This document shows, piece after piece, positions 6,895 to 34,693 of a DNA stretch of 64,000 bases (positions within the stretch are counted from its first letter, which is position 1; each line of letters opens with the position of its first letter). The stretch spans positions 186,001 through 250,000 of the forward strand of contig NZ_FOQO01000005.1 in the NCBI RefSeq assembly GCF_900113765.1, read 5' to 3'. The position numbers and the translations under genes are program-made. This stretch comes from Parapedobacter indicus. GTDB lineage: Bacteria > Bacteroidota > Bacteroidia > Sphingobacteriales > Sphingobacteriaceae. The notes under the pieces were generated by a model that had not been told where the DNA came from, did no database searches, and was given only the letters and a program-made list of their open reading frames with translations.

Positions 6895-6906
6895 AATAGC
6901 CTTTTT

Positions 6907-8367: not shown

Positions 8368-8384
8368 AAATTGTTTTTTTAATA

Positions 8385-13225: not shown

Positions 13226-13816
13226 TTAATGGATGCCTTCCACGTAATGCAAAAATAGGATATACAGAAGGATGTCTTTTCCCTGAAAGACTCGACGTAT
13301 GGCCTTTATGGCCTCATGTTTATTGATAAATACGGCATTTCGTGATATAGTCATCCGTTCGGCTATTTCTTGCGTTGAAAGACCGTCGAAGTAACTGAGT
13401 AGGAAAACTTGTCGTTGCTTCTTTGGGAGTTTTTTTACTTCATTGTATATGGTACTTATTAATTCGGTGTAGATCAGTTGTGCTTCGATATTTTCGTTGC
13501 TTGCCACGTTGTCGGTATGTTCATCGATTCTTTCGAGTATGCGGCTGCGCGGAGATTTGATATGATCGAGACATGCGTTGCGTGCTACCACATACAAAAA
13601 CGCCTTGATGTCGGCTGACGATTGGAACCGTTGGCGCACATTCCAAGCTTTCAGGAAGCAGTCGTCTACTATTTCTTCCGCCGTTTCGCGATCCTTGAGT
13701 AGCTTTATCGCAAAATAATGGATTTCGCGCGAATATCGGCCCACCACACCCCGCAATGCTTCTAGGTCCCCCTGGCGGAAGCCCAGTAGTAAATCGTCGG
13801 TACGTGAGGAACCCAT
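13226..13816 (-). CDS. ECF-type RNA polymerase sigma factor
   Basis: About 196 residues. Region 2 is seen as EIHYFAIKLLKDRETAEEIVDDCFLKAWNVRQRF and region 4 as KKLPKKQRQVFLLSYFDGLSTQEIAERMTISRNAVFINKH, the layout of Bacteroidota ECF sigma factors that pair with FecR. It probably drives the downstream SusC-SusD-sulfatase genes. An in-frame TTG at 13825 is possible, but the ATG at 13816 is the better start. The upstream amidohydrolase ends only 55 bases away on the same strand, so sigma may also be read from the agaS promoter. Confidence 0.9.
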   Translation of the reverse strand: MGSSRTDDLLLGFRQGDLEALRGVVGRYSREIHYFAIKLLKDRETAEEIVDDCFLKAWNVRQRFQSSADIKAFLYVVARNACLDHIKSPRSRILERIDEHTDNVASNENIEAQLIYTELISTIYNEVKKLPKKQRQVFLLSYFDGLSTQEIAERMTISRNAVFINKHEAIKAIRRVFQGKDILLYILFLHYVEGIH

Positions 13817-13871
13817 AGCCAACAAATAACATTAAAAAAATCCTCAAAACCAAGGGGTCTCGATTTGGAGT

Positions 13872-14897: not shown

Positions 14898-14943
14898 TTC
14901 TTTTCGGATTCTCTGGTAACTTAAAGAGTTGTTTGGTAATCTG

Positions 14944-16711: not shown

Positions 16712-16788
16712 ACGTTTGGGTGGTTTGGGGGCGCTAAGTGGGCTGAGCATGTTGTTTGTATGATGTGACCCTAAATATAGTCATTACT

Positions 16789-18024
16789 TTATAAGCGGTT
16801 AAATGAATGGATATGATCTGCGCGGTATGGATAAATCGTGACGCCTTGTACGACTCGGGTAATCGTATCGTTTGCCGATGGAGCATCTGGCTTGAGCCCC
16901 AGATTAACCGATTTAAAGAAAGCCAGGATCTGGGCAGGGAGGACACTGCAAACGGATAGAAAGTCCTCTTCTATTTTTTCTTCGTACTCGGAAAAGGAGA
17001 TAGCCAGTGTGGCTTGTAGATCGTTGTCTGGAAACTCGCTGATACCGACCTGTCCAATTCCTTTTTCAGTAGCTAAGATGGATTTGACCAAGTCAGCCTC
17101 GTATAAGTGTACGTAGTCCTCATTGGAGTACAAGAAAAATATCAGAGTTTTATGGTCGATGACCACTTTGGGTCCATGCCTCAATCCCAAAAATGAATCG
17201 TGTTTGCAAATCACTTTGCCGTCTGTAAGCTCCTGTAATTTCAACTGTGATTCCTGTGCGGCATCTTGCAGGGGCCCCGAGCCCAAGAAGAGGGCGCGGT
17301 TAAAATCAAGCGATGCCATGTCTTTCAGCGGTTGAGTGTAACGGGTGATGATGCGATCACCGTAATCTGCAAGACGTGAAACCGTTTCCGCGTAGCGGTT
17401 GATCCGGTCTATGCGGGTGATGAGGAGTCCGGCTAATAACATGCACGTAAAACTGCTTGTCATCGCCAAGCCCCGATCATTCGTTTCCTCTGGCAAATGA
17501 AAAACGAAGCAGTCGGGCCGGTCCCCCATGCGGGCCAGGTCGCCTTCGGGATTACAGGTAATGATGAGGTGAAACGCCTTTTTACATATCGCGTTGGCCA
17601 GGTTGATAGCGGCGACGCTTTCGGGGCTGTTTCCTGAGCGTGCGAAGGAAACGAGTAGTAACGTGCGATCGGGTTGGAAGTAGTGATGGGGATGGGATAC
17701 CAGGTCGGTGGTAGGTGCGGCCCATGTATTCTTACGTGAACTTTTCTGAAAAGGGTCGCGTAATATACTTCCGATATAGGCAGACGTACCCGCTCCGGTC
17801 AAGACGACTTCCATATCCGTAATCGTATATATGTCGTTAAGAAAGGCCTGCAAGGCTGCTTTGCTTTTGTTGACGAGCGCCCAGGTATTTTTCCATAATA
17901 GCGGTTGCTGTGTAATCTCTTTGGCAGTAAAAGTTCCACCGGCTTCCTGTAACTGCACTTCATCCATTCCGAGCCACGTTTTCCTCTCTTTTGTCGTTTC
18001 AGCGGTCATACGCTCCTTATCCAT
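16789..18024 (-). CDS. agaS: AgaS-type SIS-domain sugar-phosphate deaminase/isomerase
   Basis: A 411-residue protein with two SIS domains, as in GlmS C-terminal halves and AgaS. The first carries GAGTSAY (77-83) and the phosphate-binding SFARSGNSPES (126-136). The second carries FLGSGPLQDAAQESQLKLQELT around residues 250-270. AgaS converts D-galactosamine-6-P to D-tagatose-6-P with release of ammonia. The length and neighbours (tagatose-type kinase and aldolase) fit this better than a glucosamine enzyme. It is the first gene of the minus-strand operon. The -7 element TATATTTG and an inverted repeat CGTTTCAAACG lie between its ATG and the divergent ddl gene. Confidence 0.88.
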   Translation of the reverse strand: MDKERMTAETTKERKTWLGMDEVQLQEAGGTFTAKEITQQPLLWKNTWALVNKSKAALQAFLNDIYTITDMEVVLTGAGTSAYIGSILRDPFQKSSRKNTWAAPTTDLVSHPHHYFQPDRTLLLVSFARSGNSPESVAAINLANAICKKAFHLIITCNPEGDLARMGDRPDCFVFHLPEETNDRGLAMTSSFTCMLLAGLLITRIDRINRYAETVSRLADYGDRIITRYTQPLKDMASLDFNRALFLGSGPLQDAAQESQLKLQELTDGKVICKHDSFLGLRHGPKVVIDHKTLIFFLYSNEDYVHLYEADLVKSILATEKGIGQVGISEFPDNDLQATLAISFSEYEEKIEEDFLSVCSVLPAQILAFFKSVNLGLKPDAPSANDTITRVVQGVTIYPYRADHIHSFNRL

Positions 18025-18199: not shown

Positions 18200-19210
18200 A
18201 TGCAGAAAAAAAGAATTGCATTGGTTACGGGAGGCCACACAGATGAATTTGCCATCTCCTTATTGAGCGCTGATTTCGTGATCGGCCAACTCGACGACAC
18301 AAAGTATGACGTGTATAAAATAGTCGTCTCCGAGGGCCGGTGGGTGTATATGGACGACACCCTTGCTGTACACCCCGTAAATCGTGCCGATTTTACCCTC
18401 CGGTTACGTCATGAGATCGTTCATTTTGACGTTGCTTTCATCATGCTTCATGGCATTCCGGGAGAGAACGGTTGCTTTCAGGCATACCTGGAGTTATTGG
18501 GTATCCCCTATACATCTTGTGATGCGGCAACATCCGCCATTACCATGAATAAAGCGTACACCAAAGCGGTAATCGCCGATATCGATAACCTGTTTGTGGC
18601 TAAATCTGTTCAAATAGACTCGTCGGAAAGGGACGTGGCAGAACAGTTGGTCACCGAGCGGCTTAGCTTGCCGTATTTTGTAAAACCCAACTGCGGCGGC
18701 AGCAGCATTGGTATGAGCAAAGTGAAGTCGCGGGACGAATTGCCAGCAGCATTAGACCGTGCATTCAGCACGAAAAATGCGGGTAGCCAGATTCTTGTGG
18801 AGGAGTTTGTGACAGGTAGGGAATTCTCCGTAGGGGTTTTTAAACGAGGCAATAAGACGGTTGTACTGCCCATTACCGAGGTGATGGTAGCCGATGGTTT
18901 TTTTGACTACGAAGCAAAGTATCTGTCGAAAATATCCCCAGATATGACACCTGCAATGTTGAGTCCTTTCCAGCGCAGCCTGGTGGAAGAGGTGGTGATT
19001 GCGGTATACAAGCGCTTGGCTTGTAAAGGCATGGTACGGGTTGATTTCTTCCTTGAAGATAAAACCGGAAAGTTCTATTTTATTGAAATTAACACCATTC
19101 CTGGCCAGACCGACCATAGTTTCATTCCAAAGCAAGTACGTGCCGCAGGCATGGATTTGTCGTTGTTTTACGAAGAATTGATCGAAGCAGCGGTGGTCAC
19201 GGAGCGCTAA
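18200..19210 (+). CDS. ddl: D-alanine--D-alanine ligase
   Basis: A 336-residue ATP-grasp enzyme. The N-terminal substrate-binding domain opens RIALVTGGHTDEFAISLLSA, the Bacteroidota form of the Ddl signature, and MLHGIPGENGCFQAYLELLGIPYTSC follows. The ATP-grasp core has FVKPNCGGSSIGMSKV, ILVEEFVTGREFSVGV and the metal-binding FYFIEINTIPGQTDHSFIP. It joins two D-alanines for peptidoglycan precursors in the cytoplasm. Length and motifs are complete. It is divergent from agaS and followed 36 bases later by an exported amidohydrolase, an unusual place for a cell-wall gene. Confidence 0.93.
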   Translation: MQKKRIALVTGGHTDEFAISLLSADFVIGQLDDTKYDVYKIVVSEGRWVYMDDTLAVHPVNRADFTLRLRHEIVHFDVAFIMLHGIPGENGCFQAYLELLGIPYTSCDAATSAITMNKAYTKAVIADIDNLFVAKSVQIDSSERDVAEQLVTERLSLPYFVKPNCGGSSIGMSKVKSRDELPAALDRAFSTKNAGSQILVEEFVTGREFSVGVFKRGNKTVVLPITEVMVADGFFDYEAKYLSKISPDMTPAMLSPFQRSLVEEVVIAVYKRLACKGMVRVDFFLEDKTGKFYFIEINTIPGQTDHSFIPKQVRAAGMDLSLFYEELIEAAVVTER

Positions 19211-19246: not shown

Positions 19247-20365
19247 ATGGAAAGTAAACACCTGCTGTTAGCATTTAGTGTCATGATGCTTGCCTGCACT
19301 TCTGACCGCCAAACGTCCGACGACGGAACATCCGGGCAGAACGAAAAGGCGACAAGCCTGTTGCTGAAAGATTTTAAGCCCCGATCCCTCCACAAAACCG
19401 CGGAAACACCCATCGAGCGAGCGGCTTTTCCCGTGATCGATATGCACTCGCATGCCTATCCGAGAACGCCTGAAGGCATTGATGAATGGGTAATGACAAT
19501 GGATAGGCTTGGCATCGCGAAGACCGTCCTGCTCACAGGCCAGACCGGCAAGGGATTTGATTCACTGGTGAATGTGTACTCCAAATATAGCGACCGGTTT
19601 ATCTTGTTTTGCGGATTCGATTATACGGGATACGATCAAGCCGACTTTGGCCCCGCGGCGATCAAAGAGCTTGAAAGGTGCGTAGCGATGGGAGCAAAGG
19701 GCGTGGGCGAGCTTGGCGACAAAGGCTGGGGCGAAATGTACTCCAAGCCGCAAAAGGCCTTGGGTATGCATCCGGATGATGCTCGGATGAAACCATTGCT
19801 GGATAAATGTGCCGAACTGAATTTGCCGGTGAGTATACATGTGGCAGATCCGATCTGGATGTACCAACCCATGGACTCGCTGAATGACGGATTAATGAAT
19901 GCGTTTAAATGGCGTCTTGACAATAAAGAAGCGATCTTGGATCATGCCGGCATGATGGAGGTACTGGCGAATGTGGTCGGGGAAAACCCGCGAGTCACTT
20001 TTATTGCGTGCCACTACGCTAATCTTTCCCATGATTTGGCATCGCTAGCCGTACTGCTTGATCGGTTTCCAAACCTTTACGTAGACAACGCCGCGCAGTA
20101 CGGAGAAACATCGGTCATACCCCGAACAACTGCAAAATTCTATAAAAGGTATGCAGACCGTATCGTGTACGGCACAGACATGGGGGTCGACGAAGAAATG
20201 TACAAGACCACCATCCGGATTCTCGAAACGGAAGATGAACACTTCTATGATCATAAAATTTCGACGTATCATTGGTCAATGAATGGCTACGGACTCGATA
20301 AAGGCGTATTGGAAAAAGTATACCGTTTGAATGCATTGAAGCTATTAGGTCTTGACCGTGACTGA
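19247..20365 (+). CDS. Exported amidohydrolase-2 family protein (probable lipoprotein)
   Basis: A 372-residue metal-dependent hydrolase with an N-terminal hydrophobic signal ending MLACTSD, where Cys17 is a likely lipidation site although the lipobox is not perfect. A 30-residue polar linker follows. The TIM-barrel motifs are VIDMHSHAYPR (H-x-H), VSIHVADP, FIACHYAN and VYGTDMGVD, a complete metal site. It is paralogous in architecture to the cytoplasmic amidohydrolase at 13872-14897, so the two flank the agaS operon in different compartments. Substrate is unknown. Confidence 0.82.
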   Translation: MESKHLLLAFSVMMLACTSDRQTSDDGTSGQNEKATSLLLKDFKPRSLHKTAETPIERAAFPVIDMHSHAYPRTPEGIDEWVMTMDRLGIAKTVLLTGQTGKGFDSLVNVYSKYSDRFILFCGFDYTGYDQADFGPAAIKELERCVAMGAKGVGELGDKGWGEMYSKPQKALGMHPDDARMKPLLDKCAELNLPVSIHVADPIWMYQPMDSLNDGLMNAFKWRLDNKEAILDHAGMMEVLANVVGENPRVTFIACHYANLSHDLASLAVLLDRFPNLYVDNAAQYGETSVIPRTTAKFYKRYADRIVYGTDMGVDEEMYKTTIRILETEDEHFYDHKISTYHWSMNGYGLDKGVLEKVYRLNALKLLGLDRD

Positions 20366-21257: not shown

Positions 21258-21310
21258 CGCCTCGTTTGCCCCGTTCCCTACGATCCTTTTACCTTCCTAT
21301 AGGAAACCGC

Positions 21311-21355
21311 AGCGGTTGATGAAATCGAAGCTCATCAACCGCTTATTCTTTCTTT
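21311..21355 (+). terminator. Rho-independent terminator after the DeoR gene
   Basis: AGCGGTTGATGA (21311-21322) pairs perfectly with TCATCAACCGCT (21332-21343) around a 9-base loop, and a T-rich run TATTCTTTCTTT follows. This separates the regulator from the next operon. Confidence 0.88.
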
Positions 21356-21407: not shown

Positions 21408-21460
21408 TTTGAAAAATTTTTTTCTTACTTTTACTTTTGTTTTAGTGAGCTTTCGCAAAG
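21408..21460 (+). promoter_or_regulatory. Strong promoter with possible operator for the exported cassette
   Basis: TTTG (21408-21411), a 20-base spacer and TACTTTTG (21432-21439) match the Bacteroidota consensus at every fixed position. CTTTCGCAAAG (21450-21460) lies just past the expected start of transcription. It resembles the CTTTCGAAAG palindrome at the DeoR gene, so it may be an operator. Confidence 0.7.
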
Positions 21461-21470: not shown

Positions 21471-22466
21471 ATGAAAAAGAGGTTAGGCCGCTTAAGATCG
21501 TGTACTGTGCTGTTGCTGGTCATCAGCTATATGGGTGTGCCAACGGGTTGTACACGGACCAACGACGATCGGGGGGATGTGATAGCCGACTCGCTGCTCG
21601 CCGACCAATATCCGAATGATACAGGCATCGAAACCGACCCCCATGTGCTCTTTGCGGAACTATTCAAAGGCGACTTGGCGGATGTACTTACCCGTTATAC
21701 CGATGTCAAAAACGCAACGGATATGTCTTTAGAAGCGGATGCGCCTGAGGGGAGTCTTATCGGTAAGTCTATCCGCATCACCAACAACGGGGGCACAACA
21801 GACGGGGGCCATCTGTATAAGCGGTTCGCTCCAGGTTTTGACGGCACCGTTTTTCTCCGCTATTATGTAAAGTACCCACAAGCTTCTCGAAACAACTTCC
21901 ACCACGTCAGTGTCCGCATCGGTGGTTACGATCCGCCGTCTGATTGGCCGTATGGAACCGCAGGCGTATGTGATCTTCCCACTCGGTTCAACGTGTCGTA
22001 CGAACCAATTACCGGGCAAGCGGGTGAAATGGAAACGTATATTTATTGGCCCGAGATGCGGGCGTCAAACGCAGCGGGCGACCAATGCTATGGCAATTAC
22101 CTGATCAACAATGCCGGCAGGAAATCCGTCGACTATGACCGGTGGATCTGTGTGGAACTCATGGTCAAGTTGAATACGCCCGGCAAACACGACGGCGAAC
22201 TACAGGTCTGGCACGATGGGCAGGAAATGGGCCATTGGAAACCGGGTAGCCCAACAGGTAGTTGGAACCGTGACCGATTTACCCACGCTACCGGCGGAGA
22301 CCCGTTCGACGGATTTATGTGGCGTGATGCCGCCCGTTCCAGCCTTAACGTGAACAACGTGAAGTTTGAATTTTATGACACGAAAAGTCCGATAGGGCAT
22401 CATAACTATGTACAATACAGTCATTTGGTCATTGCTGCCAAACGCATTGGCCCGATTAAGCACTAA
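21471..22466 (+). CDS. Exported beta-sandwich-like protein, possible polysaccharide lyase or binding protein
   Basis: A 331-residue protein with a basic, hydrophobic signal and a possible lipidated Cys27 in a poor lipobox. The mature part is rich in aromatic residues and alternating strands (LYKRFAPGFDGTVFLRYYVKY, METYIYWPEMR, DRWICVELMVKLN, ELQVWHDGQEMGHW), as in concanavalin-A-like jelly rolls. The WICVELMVKLNTPG..DGELQVWHDGQ block resembles the ligand-binding strands of family 14-like alginate/heparin lyase folds, but I cannot assign a family. It is the first gene of the cassette with the Gfo/Idh oxidoreductase, DUF1080 protein and M20 hydrolase, 13 bases before the next ATG, and so probably acts on the same glycan outside the cell. 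Confidence 0.65.
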   Translation: MKKRLGRLRSCTVLLLVISYMGVPTGCTRTNDDRGDVIADSLLADQYPNDTGIETDPHVLFAELFKGDLADVLTRYTDVKNATDMSLEADAPEGSLIGKSIRITNNGGTTDGGHLYKRFAPGFDGTVFLRYYVKYPQASRNNFHHVSVRIGGYDPPSDWPYGTAGVCDLPTRFNVSYEPITGQAGEMETYIYWPEMRASNAAGDQCYGNYLINNAGRKSVDYDRWICVELMVKLNTPGKHDGELQVWHDGQEMGHWKPGSPTGSWNRDRFTHATGGDPFDGFMWRDAARSSLNVNNVKFEFYDTKSPIGHHNYVQYSHLVIAAKRIGPIKH

Positions 22467-22479
22467 CAAATAAGTTTCG

Positions 22480-23790
22480 ATGAATACTGACAACTTCTCC
22501 TCATCCCGAAGGACATTCTTAAAAAATTCCGCCGCCCTGGCAGGCGCAACCTTGTTGGGCACCCCCGCGGTACGGGCCAGCGCCCATCTGACGGGTAGCG
22601 ACATCCTCAAAATCGCACTTGTCGGGTGTGGCAGTCGCGGTGCGGGTGCTATAGTCAATGCATTACGGGCCGACAAGCGCGTCCAGTTAGTGGCTATGGC
22701 CGACGCTTTCGCCGATCAGCTAGCGACGACCCACAGCACGCTACTTAAAATTACAGACATTAAGGATGCCGTACGGGTACCGGAAAGCCACATGTTTGTT
22801 GGCTTTGACGGGTACAAGGAAGCGATCGCTTTGGCAGATGTGGTGATTTTAGCGACTCCCCCTGCCTTCCGTCCATTGCATTTCGACGCCGTGGTAGCGG
22901 CGGGGAAGCATACGTTTATGGAGAAACCGCTTGCCTCAGATGCCCCGGGCATCCGGCAGGTGTTAGCCACCGGGGAGGCAGCCAGCCGGAAAAACCTAAA
23001 GGTATCCGTAGGGTTGCAAAACCGATACGACCCCGCATTCATTGAGCTGAAAGAGCGATTGCAGGACGGGCAAATCGGCGAAATTGTTTCAGCAACCGAC
23101 TATTATTTAATCGGTCCGGTACGGCATGTGGACCGTCTACCCGGACAAACCGAGATGGAATACCAGATGCGTAACTGGCGGTATTTCAATTGGCTTTGGG
23201 CGGGGTCGCCGGCTGCATTGCAGATCCATAACACCGATATCGTCAATTGGGTAAAAGAAAGTTACCCCGTAAGGGCCCAAGGAATGGGTGGGCGCAGTGG
23301 CTCCTATGCGCCGGGGTACGGCGACATCTTTGATAATTTTTTCATCGAATACGAATACGCTGACGGTACGAAGCTGAACAGTCAGATCCGCAGCATTGCC
23401 GGCACATGGAACCGCGGTGGCGCTACGTTTATCGGTACCGAAGGACGAGCGGATGCGGCTGCTAAGACCATAAGCGACTTAGGGGGAAACGGACGGTGGC
23501 GCAGTGAAAGTCGCGCGAATTCCTACCAACTGCAACACGACCAGTTTTTTGCAGCTATTCGGGAAGACACCCCCATGAACGACACGGAATGGGCCGCGAT
23601 GAGCACGATGACGACCATTTTAGGTCGGATGGCAGCACATTCGGGAATGCTGATCGAGTGGGAAGACGCCCTTAACTCGGAACTGTCCATCCTTCCGGAA
23701 ACATTCGCGTGGGATGCTGCTCCACCCACCCTGCCGGATAACGAAGGTCGCTACCCGATTCCGATCCCCGGTCAATCCCCTACTTTATGA
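22480..23790 (+). CDS. Tat-exported Gfo/Idh/MocA-family oxidoreductase
   Basis: A 436-residue NAD(P)-dependent oxidoreductase. The N-terminus SSSRRTFLKNSAALAGATLL (7-26) is a textbook twin-arginine signal, so it is exported folded with its cofactor. The Rossmann loop VGCGSRGAG (48-56) and the HTFMEKPLA motif with the EKP catalytic lysine (148-150) are intact. Family members oxidise a sugar hydroxyl, often at C3, and some glycosidases use the same chemistry. The stop overlaps the next gene's ATG (ATGA at 23787-23790), tying it to the DUF1080 protein. Confidence 0.88.
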   Translation: MNTDNFSSSRRTFLKNSAALAGATLLGTPAVRASAHLTGSDILKIALVGCGSRGAGAIVNALRADKRVQLVAMADAFADQLATTHSTLLKITDIKDAVRVPESHMFVGFDGYKEAIALADVVILATPPAFRPLHFDAVVAAGKHTFMEKPLASDAPGIRQVLATGEAASRKNLKVSVGLQNRYDPAFIELKERLQDGQIGEIVSATDYYLIGPVRHVDRLPGQTEMEYQMRNWRYFNWLWAGSPAALQIHNTDIVNWVKESYPVRAQGMGGRSGSYAPGYGDIFDNFFIEYEYADGTKLNSQIRSIAGTWNRGGATFIGTEGRADAAAKTISDLGGNGRWRSESRANSYQLQHDQFFAAIREDTPMNDTEWAAMSTMTTILGRMAAHSGMLIEWEDALNSELSILPETFAWDAAPPTLPDNEGRYPIPIPGQSPTL

Positions 23791-25067
23791 AGACAACATT
23801 CATCTTATCGGTGGCCACCGCGTTGACGTCCGTGGCGTTCACCCCGGCGTTGGCCGGGCAATTGCGGACGAACACCAAATCCGAGGGGCTGTTCAACGGC
23901 CGTAACCTGGCGGGATGGACCAATGTCAATACCGCTAGAGACACTTGGGTCGTTAAAGAACATGCGTTATATTGCTCAGGATCTCCCACAGGTTATCTGC
24001 GAACTGACGAGATGTATGAGAACTACATTCTTGATTTTGAATGGTTTTCAGTAAACGGACGGGATCTTCCCGAACTATTTATCCATAGTGATGCCCTTCC
24101 CGCCGTGGGTAGTCCGTTTCCGCGTGGCATCAAAGGTCCGGCATTGGGTGCCGGGCTCGCTGCGACAGGTGGTGCATCGATCAAACCCCGCCGCTTTGCA
24201 GGCAACATTATTCTGGGTGGTTTGTGGAATAGCTACCGCTTGGAAAGCCTGGGTGGAACGATTGTGGTTTCAGTCAATGGAAAAGAAATTGCCCGTGGAA
24301 CAGCTGCGATGCCACGGAAGGGACACATCGCGTTTGCGGCTACCGGACCCACCATCGCCTATCGCAACATCAAGGTTGACCGCTTGCCTACCCATCATCC
24401 AACAGCCAACCAGGTTGCCGCAGCCGGTACTGGCTGGACTACCCTGTTTTCTGGGGAGCAACTGGACCACTGGGAGCTCAAACCTGGACATAGGGGACAT
24501 TGGGTGGCAAGGGATTGGCTGATCGATTATGACGGTAAAAGTGAGGAAAAGGACAAGTGCCTGTGGAGCAAAACCTCATTCATGGACTTTATGCTCATCG
24601 CTGACGTACGGTTTACGCGCGAACCGGAAACCATGCCAGCACCGGTCATCCTGCCTAGCGGTGAACCGGCGCTCAACGAAGATGGCTCTGCAAAGACCGT
24701 AGATTTGCCCTATTTCGGCGATACCGGCATTTACCTGCGGGGGCATTCGAAAAACCAGATCAACATCGGGAATCGGTACATCGGTTCCGGTGAAATCTAC
24801 GGATACCGGGTGGATAGGAATCTTCCGGCAGAGGTCCGCGCTGGCGTTACACCCACGGTAAAAGCCGATAAGCCAGTCGGGGAATGGAATCGGTTTATCA
24901 TCACCATGGTCGGTGATCGCATAACCGTGGAATTGAATGGCCAAGTGGTGATTGACCAGGCCGTACTCCCTGGCATTGCGCCCGCGGGCCCCATTGCACT
25001 TCAAGATGATCATTGGAATGACAACCGCTTTCAATTCGCTAACGTATTCATCAAGCCGTTAGATTGA
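23787..25067 (+). CDS. Exported double DUF1080 (3-keto-disaccharide hydrolase-like) protein
   Basis: A 426-residue protein with a signal peptide (about 1-23, ending ALAG) and two tandem DUF1080/PF06439 jelly-roll domains. The first starts GLFNGRNLAGW (34-44) and the second TLFSGEQLDHW (about 216-226). The second also has the family-typical DTGIYLRGHSKNQINIGN and VGEWNRFIITMVGDRITVELNG. Characterised DUF1080 proteins act on 3-keto-glycosides made by Gfo/Idh enzymes. The ATGA overlap with just such an oxidoreductase strongly suggests a two-step oxidise-and-cleave pair. The first domain is smaller and may be a binding module. Confidence 0.87.
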   Translation: MKTTFILSVATALTSVAFTPALAGQLRTNTKSEGLFNGRNLAGWTNVNTARDTWVVKEHALYCSGSPTGYLRTDEMYENYILDFEWFSVNGRDLPELFIHSDALPAVGSPFPRGIKGPALGAGLAATGGASIKPRRFAGNIILGGLWNSYRLESLGGTIVVSVNGKEIARGTAAMPRKGHIAFAATGPTIAYRNIKVDRLPTHHPTANQVAAAGTGWTTLFSGEQLDHWELKPGHRGHWVARDWLIDYDGKSEEKDKCLWSKTSFMDFMLIADVRFTREPETMPAPVILPSGEPALNEDGSAKTVDLPYFGDTGIYLRGHSKNQINIGNRYIGSGEIYGYRVDRNLPAEVRAGVTPTVKADKPVGEWNRFIITMVGDRITVELNGQVVIDQAVLPGIAPAGPIALQDDHWNDNRFQFANVFIKPLD

Positions 25068-25072
25068 GCATT

Positions 25073-26395
25073 ATGACACCTCACATCGACATATACTTCC
25101 GTTGCTTGGTTACGGCAATGATTTTTTGCCTGCCTGCAGCAGCCCAACCCCAATCCAGTGGAATTGCAGAAATCGTCCACGCGGAAACTCCGGAACTGAT
25201 TGCGTTATACCAGCAGCTGCATCAACACCCGGAGCTCTCGGAACAGGAAAAGGAGACCTCACGGGTGCTGGCCGATGAGCTTCGTGCGCTGGGTTTCGAC
25301 GTCACGGAGCGGGTAGGTGGATATGGCGTGGTAGGGATGATGAAAAATGGCGGCGGACCGGTTGTCTTGGTACGAACAGATATGGATGCGCTTCCCATTA
25401 CAGAGCTTACGGAGGTTCCTTACATCAGCAACGTGCCCGGTGTCATGCATGCTTGTGGGCACGACGTTCACATGACGGTATGGAAAGGGACCGCTTCGGT
25501 TGTTTCGAAGCTTCGGGACCAATGGCGTGGCACCGTCGTTTTTGTTGCACAGCCTGCCGAAGAGAATGGCGTCGGTGCCAAATCGATGCTTGCCGACGGA
25601 CTGTTTACGCGATTTCCAAGACCGGACTACGCACTCGCACTCCATGTCAGCTCGGTATTACCCGCGGGTACCGTGGGGTATCATGCGGGTATGTTTTTAG
25701 CGAGCATTGATAACCTAACGATCACCGTGAAGGGACGAGGGGGGCATGGGGCCGCCCCGCAACAGACCATTGATCCGATCGTGTTGACGTCAAAGATCGT
25801 GTTGTCGCTCCAATCGATCATCAGCCGGGAGATAGCGCCGACCGAACCGGCGGTAATCAGTGTGGGCTCCATTCACGGCGGCTCGCGCAGCAACATCATC
25901 CCCAGTGAAGTGGAGATTTCACTCACCGTCCGGACATTTGAAGACCATATTCGGGAGCATTTGCTACGCGCGATCAAACGGGTTGCTGATGGCGAGGCGC
26001 ATGCGGCGGGACTGACCCCGGAAGAATATCCACACATCAAGCACGAAGGCGAATCCTTCCCTTCCATGTACAACGACCCGAAGCTGACCGAACAAATGGC
26101 AGCTGTATTTCGCCAAACGCTAGGTGAACAACACGTCCGTGAACTTTCCCGGGAATTGGTGGGTGAGGATTTTGCGCGGTATGGCCGGGAGCAGCCGCCC
26201 ATACCCACGATGATTTATTCATTGGGTACCGTACACCCGGACCATGTGACCGCAGCAGCAGCCGGGCAAATGACATTGCCGCCGTTGCACGGGTCGTTGT
26301 ATGTTCCGGTGCCTGATCCAAGCATACCCACAGGCGTGAAAACCATGAGTGCGGCAGTCCTTTCGCTGCTGCAGCAAAAGCTAGAGGATCATTGA
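25073..26395 (+). CDS. Exported M20-family amidohydrolase
   Basis: A 440-residue peptidase-M20 / carboxypeptidase-Ss1-type amidohydrolase with an N-terminal signal (hydrophobic, ending PAAAQ). Metal-site motifs are VRTDMDALPI, HACGHDVHM, AQPAEENGVGAKSM and ALHV. The dimerisation (lid) domain contains the GRGGHGAAPQQTIDP signature. Family members hydrolyse N-acyl amino acids or other amides. A TTG at 25064 is in frame, but the ATG at 25073, six bases after the DUF1080 stop, gives a better signal peptide. In this operon it may remove an N-acyl group from a released amino sugar; that is inference. Confidence 0.87.
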   Translation: MTPHIDIYFRCLVTAMIFCLPAAAQPQSSGIAEIVHAETPELIALYQQLHQHPELSEQEKETSRVLADELRALGFDVTERVGGYGVVGMMKNGGGPVVLVRTDMDALPITELTEVPYISNVPGVMHACGHDVHMTVWKGTASVVSKLRDQWRGTVVFVAQPAEENGVGAKSMLADGLFTRFPRPDYALALHVSSVLPAGTVGYHAGMFLASIDNLTITVKGRGGHGAAPQQTIDPIVLTSKIVLSLQSIISREIAPTEPAVISVGSIHGGSRSNIIPSEVEISLTVRTFEDHIREHLLRAIKRVADGEAHAAGLTPEEYPHIKHEGESFPSMYNDPKLTEQMAAVFRQTLGEQHVRELSRELVGEDFARYGREQPPIPTMIYSLGTVHPDHVTAAAAGQMTLPPLHGSLYVPVPDPSIPTGVKTMSAAVLSLLQQKLEDH

Positions 26396-26610
26396 TAAAG
26401 GGGGAAACAACGTAGAAACAAAAAAGATAAAAAGAAAGCTGCCCTGTCAGCGGCTGGCACAAAAGCCGATGAAAATGCAGGTTCCATTAGGCCATTAAGA
26501 ACAAACTGCGAAGCATTCACTGATGCAACTAACCGCCGAAGGCAGCTTGAATGCCGATGAAATAGATCATCCATGAAAAAAACAGACAATAGATCAATAA
26601 TTATTTTCTA

Positions 26611-27966
26611 ATGAAACATATTCCAAGACGAACATTTATTAAACACGGCGCAATGGCATTTGCTGGCGCCGCATTGCTTTCACCCCAGTTTACCCACGGC
26701 CGGCCTGCTAAAAAAATCCGGTTAGGCTTTATTGGTGTGGGGTTACGTGGGCGGGCTCATGTAGCAAGTGCCTTGATGATTCCCGGCGTGGTCATACCCG
26801 CCATATGCGACATTGACAAGGACGCCGTTGCGGAGACCCAGCGTATCCTGCAGAAAGCCGGGTTGCCGGAAGCGAAAAGCTACACCAGCGGCGAGCACGA
26901 TTTCGAACACCTCGTCCGCCGCGATGATTTAGATGGCATCATTATATCGACTCCCTGGGAATGGCATGTGCCGATGGCCGTGGCCGTAATGAAAGCCGGG
27001 AAATATGCTGGTCTCGAAGTGCCCGCGTCAATCACCGTGGAGGAAACCTGGGAGCTGGTGAATGCACACGAATCGACGGGAAGCCATTGCATGATCCTTG
27101 AGAATGCATGCTATCGGCGGGATATCTTGGCCGTCCTGAATATGGTTAGGCAAGGCAGACTGGGTGAAGTCGTCCAACTGGAAGGCGGATATTTGCATGA
27201 TCTGCGGCACGTCAAATTTAATAACGGAAAGCAACCGTATGGCGGTGGCGTCGAATTCGGCGACAAGGGCTTCAGCGAAGCACGCTGGCGCACCCAACAC
27301 GCAGTAGCGCGTAATGGCGACCTATATCCTACCCATGGGCTGGGGCCGATGGCGGAAATGGTAGATATCAACCGGGGAAATCAGTTCGACCACCTAGTTT
27401 CCATGGCCACCAAAAGCAGCGGGCTCCATAATTACATCGTTGACAATGGCGGAAAAGACCACCCGAATGCCAATGTAGTTTTCAAGCTAGGCGATGTGGT
27501 GCGTACGATGATCAAATGTGTCAACGGTGAAACCATTACCCTAACTCATGATACGAATTTGCCCCGTCCGTACTCCCTTGGATATACCGTGCAGGGTACG
27601 AAGGGAATATGGCGGTATAAAAACGAGTACGAACCCAATGAGATTTACATTGAACACGAATCGGAGGATCACAAATGGGAATCTTTTGAGTCCTACCTCG
27701 CACAATATGACCACCGCCTGTGGAAAGAATTCGGAGCCGAAGCCGAGAAGACAGGGCATGACGGTATCGACTATTTTGTGATCAAAGAATTTGTGGATGC
27801 CATCCGAGAACAGGCAGTACCACCAATGGATGTCTACGATGCCGCGGCATGGTCGGTCATCGGACCCTTATCGGAGCAATCCATCGCCCAGGGATCTGCC
27901 CCGATTAAGATTCCTGACTTTACGCGGGGAAAATGGAAAAACCGTAAACCGATATTCGCTCTTTGA
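26611..27966 (+). CDS. GH109-type alpha-N-acetylgalactosaminidase (NAD-dependent, Tat-exported)
   Basis: A 451-residue Gfo/Idh/MocA-fold enzyme. The Tat signal is PRRTFIKHGAMAFAGAALL (5-23) and the Rossmann loop FIGVGLRGRAH is at 40-50. The usual EKP is replaced by EVP (136-138), as in GH109. ENACYRRD (Tyr168) and LYPTHGLGP (Tyr239, His242) match, as I recall, the Glu/Tyr/Tyr/His catalytic set of the Elizabethkingia enzyme, including the Tyr-x-x-His spacing. GH109 removes terminal alpha-GalNAc through transient oxidation by tightly bound NAD. The 215-base gap upstream carries no recognisable promoter or ORF. This gene is the clearest pointer to GalNAc as the target sugar of the locus. Confidence 0.88.
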   Translation: MKHIPRRTFIKHGAMAFAGAALLSPQFTHGRPAKKIRLGFIGVGLRGRAHVASALMIPGVVIPAICDIDKDAVAETQRILQKAGLPEAKSYTSGEHDFEHLVRRDDLDGIIISTPWEWHVPMAVAVMKAGKYAGLEVPASITVEETWELVNAHESTGSHCMILENACYRRDILAVLNMVRQGRLGEVVQLEGGYLHDLRHVKFNNGKQPYGGGVEFGDKGFSEARWRTQHAVARNGDLYPTHGLGPMAEMVDINRGNQFDHLVSMATKSSGLHNYIVDNGGKDHPNANVVFKLGDVVRTMIKCVNGETITLTHDTNLPRPYSLGYTVQGTKGIWRYKNEYEPNEIYIEHESEDHKWESFESYLAQYDHRLWKEFGAEAEKTGHDGIDYFVIKEFVDAIREQAVPPMDVYDAAAWSVIGPLSEQSIAQGSAPIKIPDFTRGKWKNRKPIFAL

Positions 27967-28128: not shown

Positions 28129-28187
28129 TTTGGTTAAAACAAAAGATTTTATCTATATTTGATTATTGAATATTCGATTAATATTCG
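28129..28187 (+). promoter_or_regulatory. Promoter of the GH20 operon with adjacent repeats
   Basis: TTTG (28129-28132), a 21-base spacer and TATATTTG (28154-28161) match the consensus exactly. A perfect 9-base inverted repeat, AATCTTTTG (28124-28132) with CAAAAGATT (28140-28148), overlaps the -33 region. Two copies of AATATTCG (28169-28176 and 28180-28187) lie one helical turn apart at the expected start site. Either repeat could be a regulator site. Confidence 0.65.
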
Positions 28188-28210: not shown

Positions 28211-30484
28211 ATGAAAAGAAACCGTTGTGTGAATTGGAGCTATTTGAAAAGACTTATCGATGTAATCTCACCTGTGTTGCTTTTTGTTTTGTATGTGTCC
28301 TTCCCTTCACCAGCACGAGGAGATACGCCGCTGTATAAAGCCGGCATTACCTTGATTCCCTATCCGCAGGACGTTCAGCTTACCGGGGAAACGTTTGATC
28401 TTCCCAATCCGCTAATGATTACGATCGATCGCGATGCAAGTGAAAAGGACAAGTTCGCCACCAGCGAGCTACGGCGTCAATTGAGCGATCGCTGGAACAT
28501 CCGCACGGAATTGACAACGGATCGGCGCCGCGCACATATCGTATTGACGAAAAGAGGTGCAGAAAGGAAGCATGGGAATCAAGGTTATCAATTGCATGTG
28601 ACGAGCAAGGGCATAACCGTTAGCGCTTCGGGTGAACCGGGTTTGTTTTACGGCGTACAGACGCTTTGCCAACTCATTCAATCGGGCGATGGCGCGTCTC
28701 CCTTTGTACAGGGCATGGCCATCAAGGACTGGCCGCACACCACCCATCGGGCCGTCCATTATGACACTAAACACCATCAGGACACACGTGAATACGTCGA
28801 AGGGTTTATTCGTGATTTGGCTAAATACAAGATAAACCTGTTGGTGTGGGAATGGGAAGACAAATTTGCTTATCCCAGCCATCCCGAAGTCGGGGCCCCC
28901 GGAGCGTTCACAATGCAAGAGATGCAGGAGATTACCCGGTACGCGCAGAACTACCACGTCCAGATCGTGCCGTTGGTGCAGGGGTTGGGCCATGTCAGCT
29001 TCATCCTGAAGTGGCCGCAATACGCGCACCTGCGGGAGATTCCTGCCTCCAATTGGGAATTCGACCCGCTGAATGAAGGGTCTTATGAATTGCTGTTCGA
29101 TCTTTGGGCCGATGCGATGGAAGCCACTCCGGGTTCCCGGTACATCCACATAGGCTCGGACGAAACCTTTGAATTGGGGAAAGGCCCCACAACGCGCGAA
29201 AAAGCAAAGGAAATCGGGCGGAATGGCCTGTATCACCTGTTTGTAGAAAAAAGCGCCCGGCGTTTGCAGAAAACGGGACGCGAGGTGATGGTTTGGGAAC
29301 GACCGATGGGCTGGACGCGGGACGTGACGACCGACGAGGGGGTGGGCCAGGAACTACCGCCGCGGTACAAAGTCACGCCACACGAGGGAATTGTATTAAC
29401 AGAAGCCTACGGCTATGAAACGCCGGAACTGAAATACGCACGGCAGGCGAAGGCGCTGGGTTTTCAGCTCTTTGCGTATGACCCGAATGCGGGAATCGAA
29501 TGTCTTTTTGTACCTTATTTTCACCGAAAAAAGGGAGCCATGCGCAATAATCCGCAGGTTATCGAAGGCAGTTTGGAACACTCCTATGATTTCTTCCGTT
29601 CGCGTTTGGGCGAGAACGTGTTTGATGGCATGATCTGTACGTCGTGGGACGATTCCGGCCTTCACAACCAAACGTGGATGCTGCGTTTTATTACCGCCGC
29701 AGAGTTCTCATGGAACGCACGATCCGATCAGTCACTGGCCGAATTTACCACAAAGTACTTTAGAAATTACTACGGAGATGACGTTACGGATATGGAAGAG
29801 CTTTTCTCGCTCCTCAATGAAGGCGCCTATTTCTATATGGAAAGCTTTGAGCGCAATGTCTGGCACCACGGCGAAATCGGGAAAACCCATATTCCCGACC
29901 TGCCGCGGACGGACGTACTGGAATACAACCCCTATTGGAACACGGAGTATGCGCATCGGGTAACCCTGGCGAATGAATTTCTCGGGAAAATGGAGCGCGC
30001 GTTGCAGATTTGCAAAAATAACCGAGCCGCTGATATTGATAATAAATACGATTTTGAGGTATTCACATCCATCGCGAAGCTGATTGAACATACCGCAAAA
30101 ACGTACCTCGACCTGTCTTCCCTTGAACATTCGATTACCAAGGCACACCAACAACGGTTCCTCGATCTCGATTCAACCCTTTATTACTTGGATCAAGCGC
30201 GAGCTACGGTGAGCGATCAGTTAGAAAGACGCAAAGAAGTATTTGATTACTTGGTTAACGTTTGGGAAAAAACGCGTTTGCCCAAAGGTATGGATACGGA
30301 TGAAAAGAAATTTTTCTTCCAGCAAGACCGTGCCCGCCATTTTGCCAACCGGACGCCCGACCTGACCTACCACATCTATGACGAACAGCTTTTGGGACTC
30401 GAAAACTATCTGGATAAGCTGACCGCTTATCGGGACTTTTTTTACGAACGTATCGTCAAACCGGAGCAAATGTATTTAAAATGA
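28211..30484 (+). CDS. GH20-family beta-N-acetylhexosaminidase
   Basis: A 757-residue exported enzyme. A signal/anchor segment covers about residues 18-37. The GH20b alpha/beta domain (about 47-170, IPYPQDVQLTGE to GVQTLCQLIQ) precedes the TIM barrel. The catalytic Asp317-Glu318 pair sits in YIHIGSDETF, the substrate-assisted GH20 signature. The barrel start HRAVHYDTKHHQD lacks the usual RGxMLD wording, so this is a divergent subgroup. A roughly 200-residue helical C-terminal extension follows the barrel. It should release terminal beta-linked GlcNAc or GalNAc. Its TGA overlaps the next gene's ATG (30481-30484). Confidence 0.9.
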   Translation: MKRNRCVNWSYLKRLIDVISPVLLFVLYVSFPSPARGDTPLYKAGITLIPYPQDVQLTGETFDLPNPLMITIDRDASEKDKFATSELRRQLSDRWNIRTELTTDRRRAHIVLTKRGAERKHGNQGYQLHVTSKGITVSASGEPGLFYGVQTLCQLIQSGDGASPFVQGMAIKDWPHTTHRAVHYDTKHHQDTREYVEGFIRDLAKYKINLLVWEWEDKFAYPSHPEVGAPGAFTMQEMQEITRYAQNYHVQIVPLVQGLGHVSFILKWPQYAHLREIPASNWEFDPLNEGSYELLFDLWADAMEATPGSRYIHIGSDETFELGKGPTTREKAKEIGRNGLYHLFVEKSARRLQKTGREVMVWERPMGWTRDVTTDEGVGQELPPRYKVTPHEGIVLTEAYGYETPELKYARQAKALGFQLFAYDPNAGIECLFVPYFHRKKGAMRNNPQVIEGSLEHSYDFFRSRLGENVFDGMICTSWDDSGLHNQTWMLRFITAAEFSWNARSDQSLAEFTTKYFRNYYGDDVTDMEELFSLLNEGAYFYMESFERNVWHHGEIGKTHIPDLPRTDVLEYNPYWNTEYAHRVTLANEFLGKMERALQICKNNRAADIDNKYDFEVFTSIAKLIEHTAKTYLDLSSLEHSITKAHQQRFLDLDSTLYYLDQARATVSDQLERRKEVFDYLVNVWEKTRLPKGMDTDEKKFFFQQDRARHFANRTPDLTYHIYDEQLLGLENYLDKLTAYRDFFYERIVKPEQMYLK

Positions 30485-31467
30485 TAACTGTCGTTACCCT
30501 TATTCAGCTCACGTTTTCCGCCTTGCTTTCCGTTGGGTACCCCTCTTTTCAGGGGATGGAATCGTACGTGGCAACCATTCCCGGCACAACGGTCACCTTT
30601 GACATGGTAGCGATCCCAAAGGGTACGTTCCAAATGGGAAGCCCCGCCTCCGAAAACGGAAGGAACGCCGACGAAGGACCGACAGGAACGGTGACAGTCG
30701 ACGCATTCTGGATGGGGAAATGTGAGGTCACGTGGGATGAATATGAACTGTTTGTCTATGCTGAATTGGAAAAGCAGGCGACCGCTAGCAAGGTACCCGA
30801 TGCGACACGCCCGCTAGTTGACGGCGTAACGCGCCCCACGCCACCCTTCATGGACATGAGTTTCGGCATGGGGAAAAGTGGATTTCCAGCGGTGAATATG
30901 ACCCAATATGCGGCAATGGCTTATTGCAAATGGTTGACAGCAAAGACCGGTAAATTCCACCGGCTTCCCACCGAGGCGGAGTGGGAATACGCCTGCAGGG
31001 CCGGCACCCAGACCGCCTATGGTTTTGGGTCGGATGCGAGCCAACTGGGCGCCTACGCTTGGTACCTGGGAAACAGCGGCGGGAAATACCATACAGTGGG
31101 CACGCGAAAGCCAAACGCTTGGGGATTGCACGACATGCATGGCAATGTGGCCGAATGGACACTGGACCAATACGTGGCCGATTTTTACCGTACCCGATCC
31201 GACACCAAAAATCCGTGGGCGAAGGCTACCCGACTTTATCCGCACGCGGTGCGTGGTGGGCATTGGGAAGCGCCAGCACCGGCATTGCGTTCCGCTGCCC
31301 GCGGACAATCGCGGCCCGAATGGAAACAACGTGACCCCCAGATTCCCAAGAGCGATTGGTGGTTGACGGATGCGTCATTTGTGGGCTTTCGGATCGTACG
31401 GCCCTTGAAGCAACCGACCGCCGCGCAAATCGAAGCCTATTTCACTTCACCCTTACCCGATTATTAA
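30481..31467 (+). CDS. SUMF1/FGE-sulfatase-domain protein without FGE cysteines
   Basis: A 328-residue exported protein with the FGE/SUMF1 C-type-lectin fold: MVAIPKGTFQMGS (42-54), RLPTEAEWEYACRAG (161-175), WGLHDMHGNVAEWTLDQY (214-231) and the closing FVGFRIVR. True formylglycine-generating enzymes carry two copper-binding cysteines in the segment after RGG. Here RGGHWEAPAPALRSAARG (258-275) has none, so it is unlikely to mature the sulfatase in this window. It is translationally coupled to the GH20 gene, which suggests a glycan-related or scaffold role. About 68 bases separate it from the SusC gene. Confidence 0.85.
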   Translation: MITVVTLIQLTFSALLSVGYPSFQGMESYVATIPGTTVTFDMVAIPKGTFQMGSPASENGRNADEGPTGTVTVDAFWMGKCEVTWDEYELFVYAELEKQATASKVPDATRPLVDGVTRPTPPFMDMSFGMGKSGFPAVNMTQYAAMAYCKWLTAKTGKFHRLPTEAEWEYACRAGTQTAYGFGSDASQLGAYAWYLGNSGGKYHTVGTRKPNAWGLHDMHGNVAEWTLDQYVADFYRTRSDTKNPWAKATRLYPHAVRGGHWEAPAPALRSAARGQSRPEWKQRDPQIPKSDWWLTDASFVGFRIVRPLKQPTAAQIEAYFTSPLPDY

Positions 31468-31535: not shown

Positions 31536-34500
31536 ATGAAAATGAAACTACTCAACAAATTATGGACGGTAACGCTAATTGCCTGTTGCTTTTCGCTTTA
31601 TGGAAGCGCACAGCAGGCGATTTCTGGTCGCGTTACGGCAAATGGCCAACCGGTTGTTGGTGCCTCCATACAGGTTGCGGGCACGTCGACCGCCGTGCAG
31701 ACGAACCAAGACGGAACCTATTCGATAACAGCGGCATCCGGCAGCGGTGTGTTGGTGGTGTCGTATGTGGGCTTTGTCACGCAGCACGTGCCCATCAATA
31801 ACCGCACGGTAATCCATGTGGAACTGCAGGAGGGCGCTACCGAAATCGGGGAAGTATTGGTGACGGCGCTTGGTATCGAACGGGAAAAGAAAGCATTAGG
31901 TTATTCCATTCAGGAAGTCGACCTGTCGACCGTTACGGAAGCCCGGGAATCAAATATCGCCAATTCCCTGAAGGGTAAGGTTGCGGGTGTACACGTAAAT
32001 GCTACAACGGGTGGGGCTGGTTCATCATCGTTTGTGGTGATCCGAGGCAGCAGCTCTATTGCCGGCGAAAATCAACCCCTGTATGTGGTAGACGGTGTGC
32101 CTATTGATAATCAAACGCTGGATCAGGCCGGTATCTTCGGAGGTAAGGATTATGGCGATGGTATTAATAACATAAATCCCGATGACGTTGCGGAAATGTC
32201 TGTGCTGAAAGGCCCCGCTGGCGCAGCACTTTATGGTGCACGCGGAGCAAATGGTGTCATTTTAATTACCACCAAAAGCGGTAGAGGCCGGAAAGGCCTT
32301 GGCGTCGAATTCAATTCCAATTTTGTGATGGAAACCATCAATGTCATCCCGACGATGCAGGATAGGTGGGGTGTTGGGTATGGTGGTACCAATAGCTTTG
32401 GATCTATGGAGTATGAAGGTACGAGCTATCCCGCCCAGACGGGAAATGGCGACCAGTTTGGGGGCCCGCTGGATGGCCAGCTGATCATGTTTACCTATAT
32501 GCCGGAATGGAGCCCCAGGCCCTACTCGCCACAGCCTGCCGATAACATCCGGGATTTTTTCGACACCGGAAAGACATGGACGAATACGATTGCCGTTTCA
32601 GGCGGGGGAGATAAGAATTCCTTTCGGTTATCGGTTTCGGACATGCGGAATACCGGAATTATACCCAATAACAAACTGCAGCGGCAGACTTTCAATTTAA
32701 GAGCGACATCGAACATCACCGATAAACTTTTCGTCGAAGGTAAATTGAACTATATCCGACAGGGCGGCGAGAATCGGCAAGCGACCGGTATAACCACCCA
32801 GAATCCAGCTTACAGTCTTTATCTGACACCACGATTTGTCGACCTAAACTGGCTCAAAGACTATAAGAAGGAAGATGGAACCATGGTTAACTGGAAATCG
32901 GGAACGCCGTATAACCCTTATTGGCTGGTGAACGAATTCCAGAATGATGATAAACGGGACCGGGTTATCGGTATGCTCATGGGTAGGTACGCCTTCACGA
33001 GTTGGTTAAGCTTGCAGGCACGTGCCGGAACGGATTTTTATACCGATGTCCGATTTGATCGGAAAGGGACCTATTCGCCGCCTGCCGCCTTGATGCCTGG
33101 AACGGTAGACAATGCCACCTGGCATGTAAAGGAGGAAAATTTTGACGTGTTGCTGACGGCAAACGGTGACCTATCGGAAGATTTCAAAGGGTACTTCTCT
33201 GTGGGTGCGAATCACTTAAACCGTAAACAGGAGGTTGTAGGATTGAGCGGGGAGAATCTCAATATACCTTACGTGTATCACATCAGCAATGCCCAGATTG
33301 TAAGGCCTCGGAACTCATTGAGTCGGAAACAGATGAATTCCGTATACTTCGCAGGACAGGTTGGCTATAAAGACTATTTGTTCCTGGATGTCACCGGTCG
33401 GAACGACTGGTCCTCTACCTTGGGGCTAAACAGCAACTCATTTTTCTATCCATCCATTGCAACAAGTTTCGTTTTTACAGACGCGCTAGGCATGCGCAAC
33501 AACCCGATATTATCGTTCGGTAAGATTCGGCTCTCTGTCGCGCAGGCGGGTAACGACGCGGTGCCTTTCCAAACGACCGGCGGATACGCACTTGACATGG
33601 TTGGATATGGGCCGGGATTGCCTTATGCTACCCTCCGCAGTCAGGTACCGCTCCTTGATTTGAAGAATGAGCTGACGACCGGCTTCGAGGCCGGTACCGA
33701 ATTACGGTTCTTCAAGAACCGGTTAGGAATCGATTTCACCTATTATACACAATCGACCAAAAACCAGATTCTGCCGGTCCAGGTATCGATGGCTACGGGT
33801 TACGCTACCCGCGTCATCAATGCCGGTGAGATAAAGAACCATGGCGTGGAACTGCTGCTTAATGGGACACCCGTAGAAGTAGGCGGTTTCCGCTGGGACC
33901 TTTCACTGAACTTATCCAGGAACCGGTCACAGGTCGTTTCGCTCGCTCCAAATATTTCGACGCACGTGCTGATCGAAAATGCAAATGGCCGGATTGAAGC
34001 CCGGGTTGGCGAAGCTTATGGCAATATCGTCGGATTCCCGTATCTCCGCACGGACGATGGACGCCTCTTGCTTAGCGAGACGGGTGTCGCTCAGCGTGCG
34101 GCAGAACAGGTTGTGCTCGGGAATATACAGCCTGATTTTCTGGGCGGATTAACGAGTACCTTTAATTATAGAGGAGTGTCGTTAAGCGGTTTATTGGATA
34201 TAAGAATTGGGGGTCAGGTGTTTTCATTCAGCCGATATCATCAGCACGCCAAAGGAACAGGTGTATTCACCAACGATCGGGAAAACCTGATCAATGATGG
34301 TGTCATTTTGCAGGAAGATGGTACGTATAAGCAAAGCGACATCGTGCTGACGCCTGAAAACTATTATGGGCAACGCGCGTGGGGGAATGTGGGTGAAGAA
34401 ATGATCATGGATGCAGACTACCTCGCTTTGCGTGAACTAACGCTCGGTTATGCGTTCCGGCCTGGATTTTTGAAAAGTACGCCCTTTCAGCATATTAAGC

Positions 34501-34670: not shown

Positions 34671-34693
34671 TGTATCATATGATCTTGTTTAAC

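Follow-up and report, generated by a model that had tools for sequence, protein, structure and literature searches.

The window analysed here, 64,000 nucleotides of contig C19 in a 6.16-Mb Parapedobacter genome, contains a row of five genes coding for a lipoprotein, a Gfo/Idh/MocA oxidoreductase, a double DUF1080 protein, an M20 amidohydrolase and a GH109 enzyme. The oxidoreductase and DUF1080 genes, in part together with the M20 gene, are linked in several genera to the regulator AgaR and to Aga enzymes of N-acetylgalactosamine (GalNAc) and galactosamine catabolism. Our best guesses are an amino sugar as the substrate, given this conserved tie, and keto-dependent cleavage as the chemistry, given the predicted fold of the second DUF1080 domain. 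We therefore favour, at about even chances, a reading in which the locus is a utilisation cluster for GalNAc/galactosamine glycans with a dedicated exported module that oxidises and eliminates.

Composition of the cassette

An earlier note on this stretch had described the five genes as a promoter-led run. All five open reading frames were found on the forward strand with the expected family matches:

21408–21439, + strand: Bacteroidota-type promoter match TTTG-N20-TACTTTTG, about 31 bases before the lipoprotein gene
21471–22466, + strand: PL14-like jelly-roll lipoprotein (PF21294 Polysacc_lyase_14, 28.9 bits, cut-off 27)
22480–23790, + strand: Tat-type Gfo/Idh/MocA oxidoreductase (GFO_IDH_MocA match), predicted exported sugar (3-)dehydrogenase
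23787–25067, + strand: double DUF1080 (3keto-disac_hyd) protein with a degenerate domain D1 (about residues 29–202) and a conserved domain D2 (about residues 213–426)
25064–26395, + strand: predicted exported M20 amidohydrolase (Peptidase_M20 and M20_dimer; TIGR01891, 309 bits, cut-off 153.75)
26611–27966, + strand: GH109 N-acetylgalactosaminidase (PF21252 Glyco_hydro_109_C, 287.4 bits, cut-off 27)

The ATGA overlap between the oxidoreductase stop and the DUF1080 start was confirmed at 23787–23790. The M20 reading frame abuts the DUF1080 gene as well, its TTG at 25064 overlapping the DUF1080 stop, with an in-frame ATG at 25073 as alternative start. The boundaries drawn for the cassette were too narrow, since GH20, FGE-like, SusCD, enolase-family and NagP-like genes continue the row downstream in the same direction and Aga genes precede it. 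Its position makes the promoter match plausible, but the number of pattern matches in the window is not significant (2 versus 1.84 expected). A scan for sigma-70 promoters and terminators gave the same counts as in shuffled sequences. Behind the AgaR gene and upstream of the lipoprotein gene, a perfect 12-bp hairpin with a T-rich tail (about 21310–21355) resembles a terminator. A search for AgaR operators in the window and its relatives returned AT-rich matches only, with no convincing site upstream of the lipoprotein gene.

Linkage to AgaR and the Aga genes

The nearest named relative in the collection is P. pyrenivorans (locus L124), whose oxidoreductase is 94% identical to that of the window. 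Here a BadF-type kinase gene, the Aga operon, AgaR, the cassette and the transporter gene form one contiguous block with 77–98% identity. The cassette genes were absent from the seven other congeners compared, one of which has only a distant homologue of the lipoprotein. The conclusion suggested by these closest relatives alone, that the genes do not co-occur beyond one sister species, was overturned by wider scans.

A scan of 84,980 species was carried out with an oxidoreductase alignment, and the counts given for it refer to the best 80 loci returned. The four closest belong to P. pyrenivorans, Flavihumibacter sp. UBA7668 (L125) and two metagenome-assembled Chitinophagaceae genomes (L126 and L127). 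AgaR was present in all four, accompanied by AgaS and PfkB in three, and none of the three genes was found in the remaining 76 loci. The Aga linkage is thus specific to the closest relatives of this oxidoreductase. A related DUF1080 gene directly follows the oxidoreductase gene in all four loci and is itself followed by M20 in three. The Aga-linked oxidoreductases group together in a single clade with a support of 0.83.

In a second scan, a DUF1080 alignment was used to search 344 genomes of the family of G387, which was taken as Chitinophagaceae from sequence similarity. Five strong matches to D2 (more than 400 bits) were obtained in three genera (G504, G747, G697, G724 and G679). The oxidoreductase and AgaR genes adjoin DUF1080 in each of them, and AgaS, PfkB and GatY lie on the fetched stretch of all except G504. 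G724 closely resembles L127, as does G504 L126, and these were not counted as independent loci. Altogether, P. pyrenivorans and members of three or more genera of Chitinophagaceae have the oxidoreductase–DUF1080 pair beside AgaR/Aga genes. G697 is the only linked locus outside Parapedobacter with all five cassette genes, together with GH20, FGE-like, SusCD and sulfatase genes within about 27 kb. M20 is present in the window, L124, L125, L126, G504 (as a split frame) and G697.

The conserved co-occurrence whose absence would have refuted the earlier note was therefore found for oxidoreductase and DUF1080, in part with M20. M20 is not universal, and GH109 does not depend on the pair. Among 17 other Bacteroidota AgaS loci, 11 carry GH109 and lack both oxidoreductase and DUF1080, so that GH109 is a general companion of Aga loci and the oxidoreductase–DUF1080(–M20) set a special addition.

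These counts bear on two other explanations. The pair might be a salvage or repair system, the oxidoreductase and a DUF1080 hydratase rescuing 3-keto or 1,2-unsaturated amino sugars that escape as by-products from GH109. GH109 catalysis passes through a transient keto/unsaturated intermediate, and relatives of the DUF1080 protein are titled 3-keto-2-hydroxy-glucal hydratases. We nevertheless consider salvage highly unlikely in view of the 11 loci with GH109 and no pair, and because the fetched stretches of L125 and G747 hold the pair but no GH109. Alternatively, the pair could be a passenger acting on unrelated glucosides or galactosides. The oxidoreductase family is indeed common without Aga genes (76 of the 80 loci), and elsewhere in the genome there are 30 matches to DUF1080 and two enzymes of the BT2158 type. 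However, a passenger would be lost or moved, whereas the pair stays beside AgaR/Aga genes in several genera of two families, and this explanation is unlikely too.

Of the 76 loci without Aga genes, 62 have an FGE-like gene on the same strand at a distance of no more than 2.5 kb; the gene of an exported AP_endonuc_2 TIM barrel is a neighbour in 33, ApbE in 32 and DUF1080 in only five. The most constant partner of the oxidoreductase family is thus the FGE-like protein and not DUF1080. Conserved pairs of the oxidoreductase and a cysteine-less FGE-like protein (L053–L086, L128–L203) are spread across Bacteroidota, Verrucomicrobiota and Planctomycetota, often with the TIM barrel protein and ApbE.

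Oxidoreductase and DUF1080 protein

The twin-arginine translocation (Tat) signal of the oxidoreductase was recognised by TIGR01409 (17.0, cut-off 16.7), while the Pfam TAT model remained below its cut-off. E148-K149-P150 is invariant in 12 aligned oxidoreductases and the nucleotide-binding glycines are kept, which bears out the description as a Tat-type enzyme with an intact EKP motif. By the curated test the protein lies outside the BT2158 family, yet it may work like a BT2158 enzyme. Two glycoside 3-dehydrogenases of that family scoring above the cut-off are encoded elsewhere in the genome (C11:51660–53751 and C26:83676–85878), each adjoining a DUF1080 gene, so that the classical 3-keto route is present separately.

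The DUF1080/3keto-disac_hyd match (152.8 bits, cut-off 26.8) spans two stretches of the protein. Two domains are present as previously proposed, but only D2 looks active, because D1 is devoid of the NSG and ExQ motifs of the family in Parapedobacter as well as in those relatives that have it. In L127/G724 and G679, D1 is missing and D2 stands alone. D1 resembles a single-domain DUF1080 protein beside another pair of oxidoreductase and FGE-like protein in the same genome; this second locus (L083, C23:665001–685000) has three DUF1080 genes around it.

D2 carries variants of the NSG/ExQ/GxxY consensus (DTGIYLRG, NQINI and GSGEIYG) that are kept in five aligned relatives, and its conservation is strong (DTGIYLRG, Q-x-N-I and GSGEIYG-R-VD). 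Its predicted fold matched best to the 3-keto-glycoside eliminase/hydratase 9fbe (Z 17.9, 21% identity), followed by 8tda and 8v31 (Z 16.6–16.7), with jelly rolls of other families at 14.7 or below. As the structure model is of low confidence (mean pLDDT 61.5), the fold match was considered for D2 alone and always in combination with the sequence match. It agrees with the proposed 3-keto-glycoside cleaving type and supports, without proving, an activity as keto-glycoside eliminase/hydratase. For other enzymes it is established that glycosides oxidised at C3 undergo elimination (PMC10628242).

Lipoprotein, M20, GH109 and FGE-like proteins

The lipoprotein, called unknown in the earlier note, has a PL14-like fold. 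Its AlphaFold model (pLDDT 75.5) matched PL14 and PL36 alginate lyases at Z 18.0–18.6 (18.6 for PL14 5gmt, 18.5 for PL36 6kzk), about three units above GH16 enzymes (Z about 15.5), in agreement with the weak Pfam PL14 match. Sequence searches of the PDB, including a profile search, returned no relative. With this predicted fold the protein may cut or merely bind a glycan. Related genes were found in L126, G504 and G697, not in all linked loci.

The M20 protein fits the exported amidohydrolase proposed earlier, with a family score above the cut-off and the residues CGHD, EE, ALHV and GEDF invariant in four sequences. Its nearest solved relatives are bacterial aminoacylases (6slf, E 1e-76) and indole-3-acetic acid–amino acid hydrolases. 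A relationship to the sugar deacetylase OngB was ruled out, OngB being a TIM-barrel enzyme of the D-aminoacylase type. In L164 and L169 an M20 gene is located one gene away from a related, more distant oxidoreductase, and in L164 it adjoins a glucosamine-6-phosphate isomerase-family gene. This hints at an N-acyl sugar or amide substrate but is no proof of one.

Near such oxidoreductase and M20 loci (L164, L169, L125 and G697), genes for an Nramp-family transporter, a weakly matching dihydrodipicolinate synthase-like aldolase and an NAD-epimerase-like protein recur, which possibly are parts of a wider keto-acid pathway. A gene for a BioF/Kbl-type pyridoxal phosphate-dependent acyltransferase-like protein follows M20 or DUF1080 in L125 (13802–14890), L126 (13892–14962), G504 and G747.

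The GH109 assignment was upheld by the PF21252 score, a Rossmann (NAD-binding) domain and the kept acid/base histidine; the match to 2ixa covers the full length (E 2e-141). GH109 is a GalNAc-specific family (PMC12269599). In the FGE-like family, 25 aligned homologues have no cysteine in conserved columns and share an invariant DPQ-P-S-WW signature. Since the active-site cysteine pair of FGE is missing, the protein is no conventional sulfatase activator.

The surrounding GalNAc locus

The genes flanking the cassette were assigned as follows:

4604–5461, + strand: BadF/NagK-type ATPase, candidate GalNAc kinase (AgaK-like; Pfam BadF 28.9 bits, just below the cut-off of 31.5)
13872–14966, − strand: Amidohydro_2 (PF04909) protein, last gene of the AgaS operon, candidate non-NagA deacetylase
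14944–15765, − strand: GatY/KbaY-like class II aldolase (tagatose bisphosphate), family match
15749–16750, − strand: PfkB kinase, candidate tagatose-6-phosphate kinase, family match
16789–18024, − strand: AgaS-like SIS-domain isomerase/deaminase (TIGR02815, 377.6 bits, cut-off 529.2)
19247–20365, + strand: Amidohydro_2 protein with apparent signal/lipobox; a homologue directly follows DUF1080 in L127
20478–21257, + strand: AgaR-type DeoR repressor (NF040755, 288.8 bits, cut-off 260)
28211–30484, + strand: GH20 hexosaminidase with its own promoter-like site (28129–28161)
30481–31467, + strand: FGE-like (PF03781) predicted exported protein, usual neighbour of the oxidoreductase family
31536–36202, + strand: SusC/SusD pair; SusC orthologues (about 55% identity) in four linked loci outside Parapedobacter
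37348–38670, + strand: NagP-like sugar transporter of the major facilitator superfamily (MFS; TIGR01272, 256 bits, cut-off 202.6)

The AgaS-like gene forms one operon with the PfkB, GatY-like and Amidohydro_2 genes, divergent from the AgaR/cassette side. The same set of PfkB and class II aldolase occurs in 14–16 of the 17 AgaS loci. TIGR02815 is the best family for the AgaS-like protein and its full model is covered; the label "AgaS-like" was chosen because the score is under the cut-off. No NagA-type deacetylase is encoded in the window, with three NagA genes elsewhere in the genome. A homologue of the Amidohydro_2 protein closes the AgaS operon in 14 of the 17 loci, and the protein is a candidate for the missing GalNAc-6-phosphate deacetylase; no solved relative was found by sequence. 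Scores under the strict family cut-offs were also obtained for the BadF-type ATPase (31 bits against NagK_SO3507, cut-off 370) and the transporter (376 bits against NagP_SO3503, cut-off 625), and the pathway was therefore assigned from the gene set as a whole. This flanking set with AgaR supports the amino-sugar (GalNAc/galactosamine) context.

In the window a block of sulfatase, SusCD and ECF/FecR genes (5494–13825) separates the BadF-type kinase gene from the Aga operon. Both are adjacent in P. pyrenivorans, so the block is either an insertion in the window or was lost from P. pyrenivorans. Another ECF/FecR/SusCD cluster, at 50519–61016, includes two metallophosphoesterases. The locus also holds a second D-Ala-D-Ala ligase (18200–19210), which can be dismissed as the sole, housekeeping copy of the genome owing to a 55% identical paralogue elsewhere. 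An enolase-family enzyme at 36212–37309 is closest to the dipeptide epimerase-type structure 3q45.

Some of these genes would fit a different role of the module, namely preparation of the glycan. A neighbouring hexose or uronic acid would be removed via a 3-keto intermediate and amide-linked amino acids by M20, before GH109 and GH20 release GalNAc. The aminoacylase-like M20 protein (6slf), the ligase paralogue, the dipeptide-epimerase-like enolase, the amidohydrolase and the fold of PL14, a family acting on uronic-acid polymers, point in this direction, as do the ordinary hexosides that are the known DUF1080/BT2158 substrates. However, among the loci compared the ligase is kept only in Parapedobacter, and the linkage to AgaR is tighter than that to any hexose gene. 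We regard glycan preparation as possible but doubtful.

Proposed route

The module probably serves amino-sugar glycans, judging from its conserved gene neighbourhood. In the route that we favour, the SusC/D pair and the PL14-fold lipoprotein would capture or cut the glycan outside the cell, and GH20 and GH109 would free ordinary GalNAc ends. At ends resistant to both, the Tat-exported oxidoreductase would oxidise a ring hydroxyl, most likely at C3, of the amino sugar or its neighbour, and D2 would split the glycosidic bond by elimination followed by rehydration. M20 may take off an N-acyl or amide-linked group. The NagP-like transporter would import the free amino sugar, which would then be phosphorylated, deacetylated and passed through AgaS, PfkB and GatY into glycolysis under the control of AgaR. 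From the gene set and its context we infer the order of these steps, the role of M20, the C3 position, the amino-sugar substrate and, beyond the signal motifs, the export of the cassette enzymes. Of the cassette function suggested earlier (oxidation, cleavage and de-acylation of an amino-sugar glycan), context, linkage, D2 fold and M20 residues are thus supported, whereas any action of the oxidoreductase, be it on GalNAc or at C3, and action of M20 on a sugar are conjectural.

Several findings speak against this route. The oxidoreductase scored only 42.3 bits against the BT_2158 glycoside 3-dehydrogenase family (NF058561, cut-off 750), far under the cut-off, which leaves its C3 specificity uncertain. 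The closest solved M20 relatives act on N-acyl amino acids, and M20 is missing from the linked loci L127/G724, G679 and G747. Oxidoreductase, DUF1080 and M20 are all absent from the 17 other Bacteroidota AgaS loci, and several Aga enzymes match the right family best without reaching its strict cut-off.

A bolder version is distinctly unlikely. In it, 3-keto-GalNAc glycosides would form and be cleaved outside the cytoplasm, and M20 would remove the N-acetyl group to give a 2-amino-3-keto sugar. In Chitinophagaceae the BioF/Kbl-type enzyme would process this product, part of it bypassing the classical Aga pathway.

The recently discovered cleavage of glycosidic bonds through a keto intermediate is known from neutral hexosides. 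If the favoured route is true, its conserved, AgaR-linked form would widen this chemistry to glycans with amino sugars (chondroitin-, mucin- or fungal galactosaminogalactan-like), and the DUF1080, M20 and FGE-like proteins that recur in Bacteroidota would gain a role. The locus yields a short list of enzymes to test.

Comparison with known systems

The Aga genes resemble the aga pathway of E. coli and Shewanella (PMC3668189, PMC12118421) in AgaR, AgaS, tagatose-6-phosphate kinase and aldolase. In contrast, the operon of the window is without phosphotransferase system and AgaA genes, an Amidohydro_2 gene takes the place of AgaA, and a glycan-cleaving module is added. The GalNAc/mucin utilisation locus BT4240-50 of B. 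thetaiotaomicron shares GH109, a GalNAc kinase, an MFS transporter and SusCD. In the sections of the published account considered here (PMC11992087), it has no oxidoreductase, DUF1080, M20 or AgaS/tagatose branch, and its kinase is a phosphotransferase-family GalNAc-1-kinase unlike that of the window.

The GH109 protein aligns over its full length with GH109 N-acetylgalactosaminidases (2ixa, 6t2b), but its loop reads TGHDG instead of the published GGHGG, with the histidine kept. The lipoprotein has the fold of PL14/PL36 lyases (5gmt, 6kzk, 3gne; Z about 18.5 over about 215 residues) at an identity of only 14–17%.

The cluster BT2156-BT2160 of B. thetaiotaomicron likewise couples an exported Gfo/Idh/MocA enzyme (dehydrogenase BT2158) to DUF1080 (BT2157), and D2 has the predicted fold of 8tda, 3osd and 9fbe. 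However, the oxidoreductase of the window is an orthologue of neither BT2158 nor BT2159. The window cluster lacks the AP_endonuc_2 partner, is tied to AgaR and M20, and has a double DUF1080 protein with a degenerate D1. Given the low score of the oxidoreductase against the curated BT2158 family, we would rather regard the module as a newly seen version of the 3-keto-glycoside route than as a member of the BT2156-2160 pathway.

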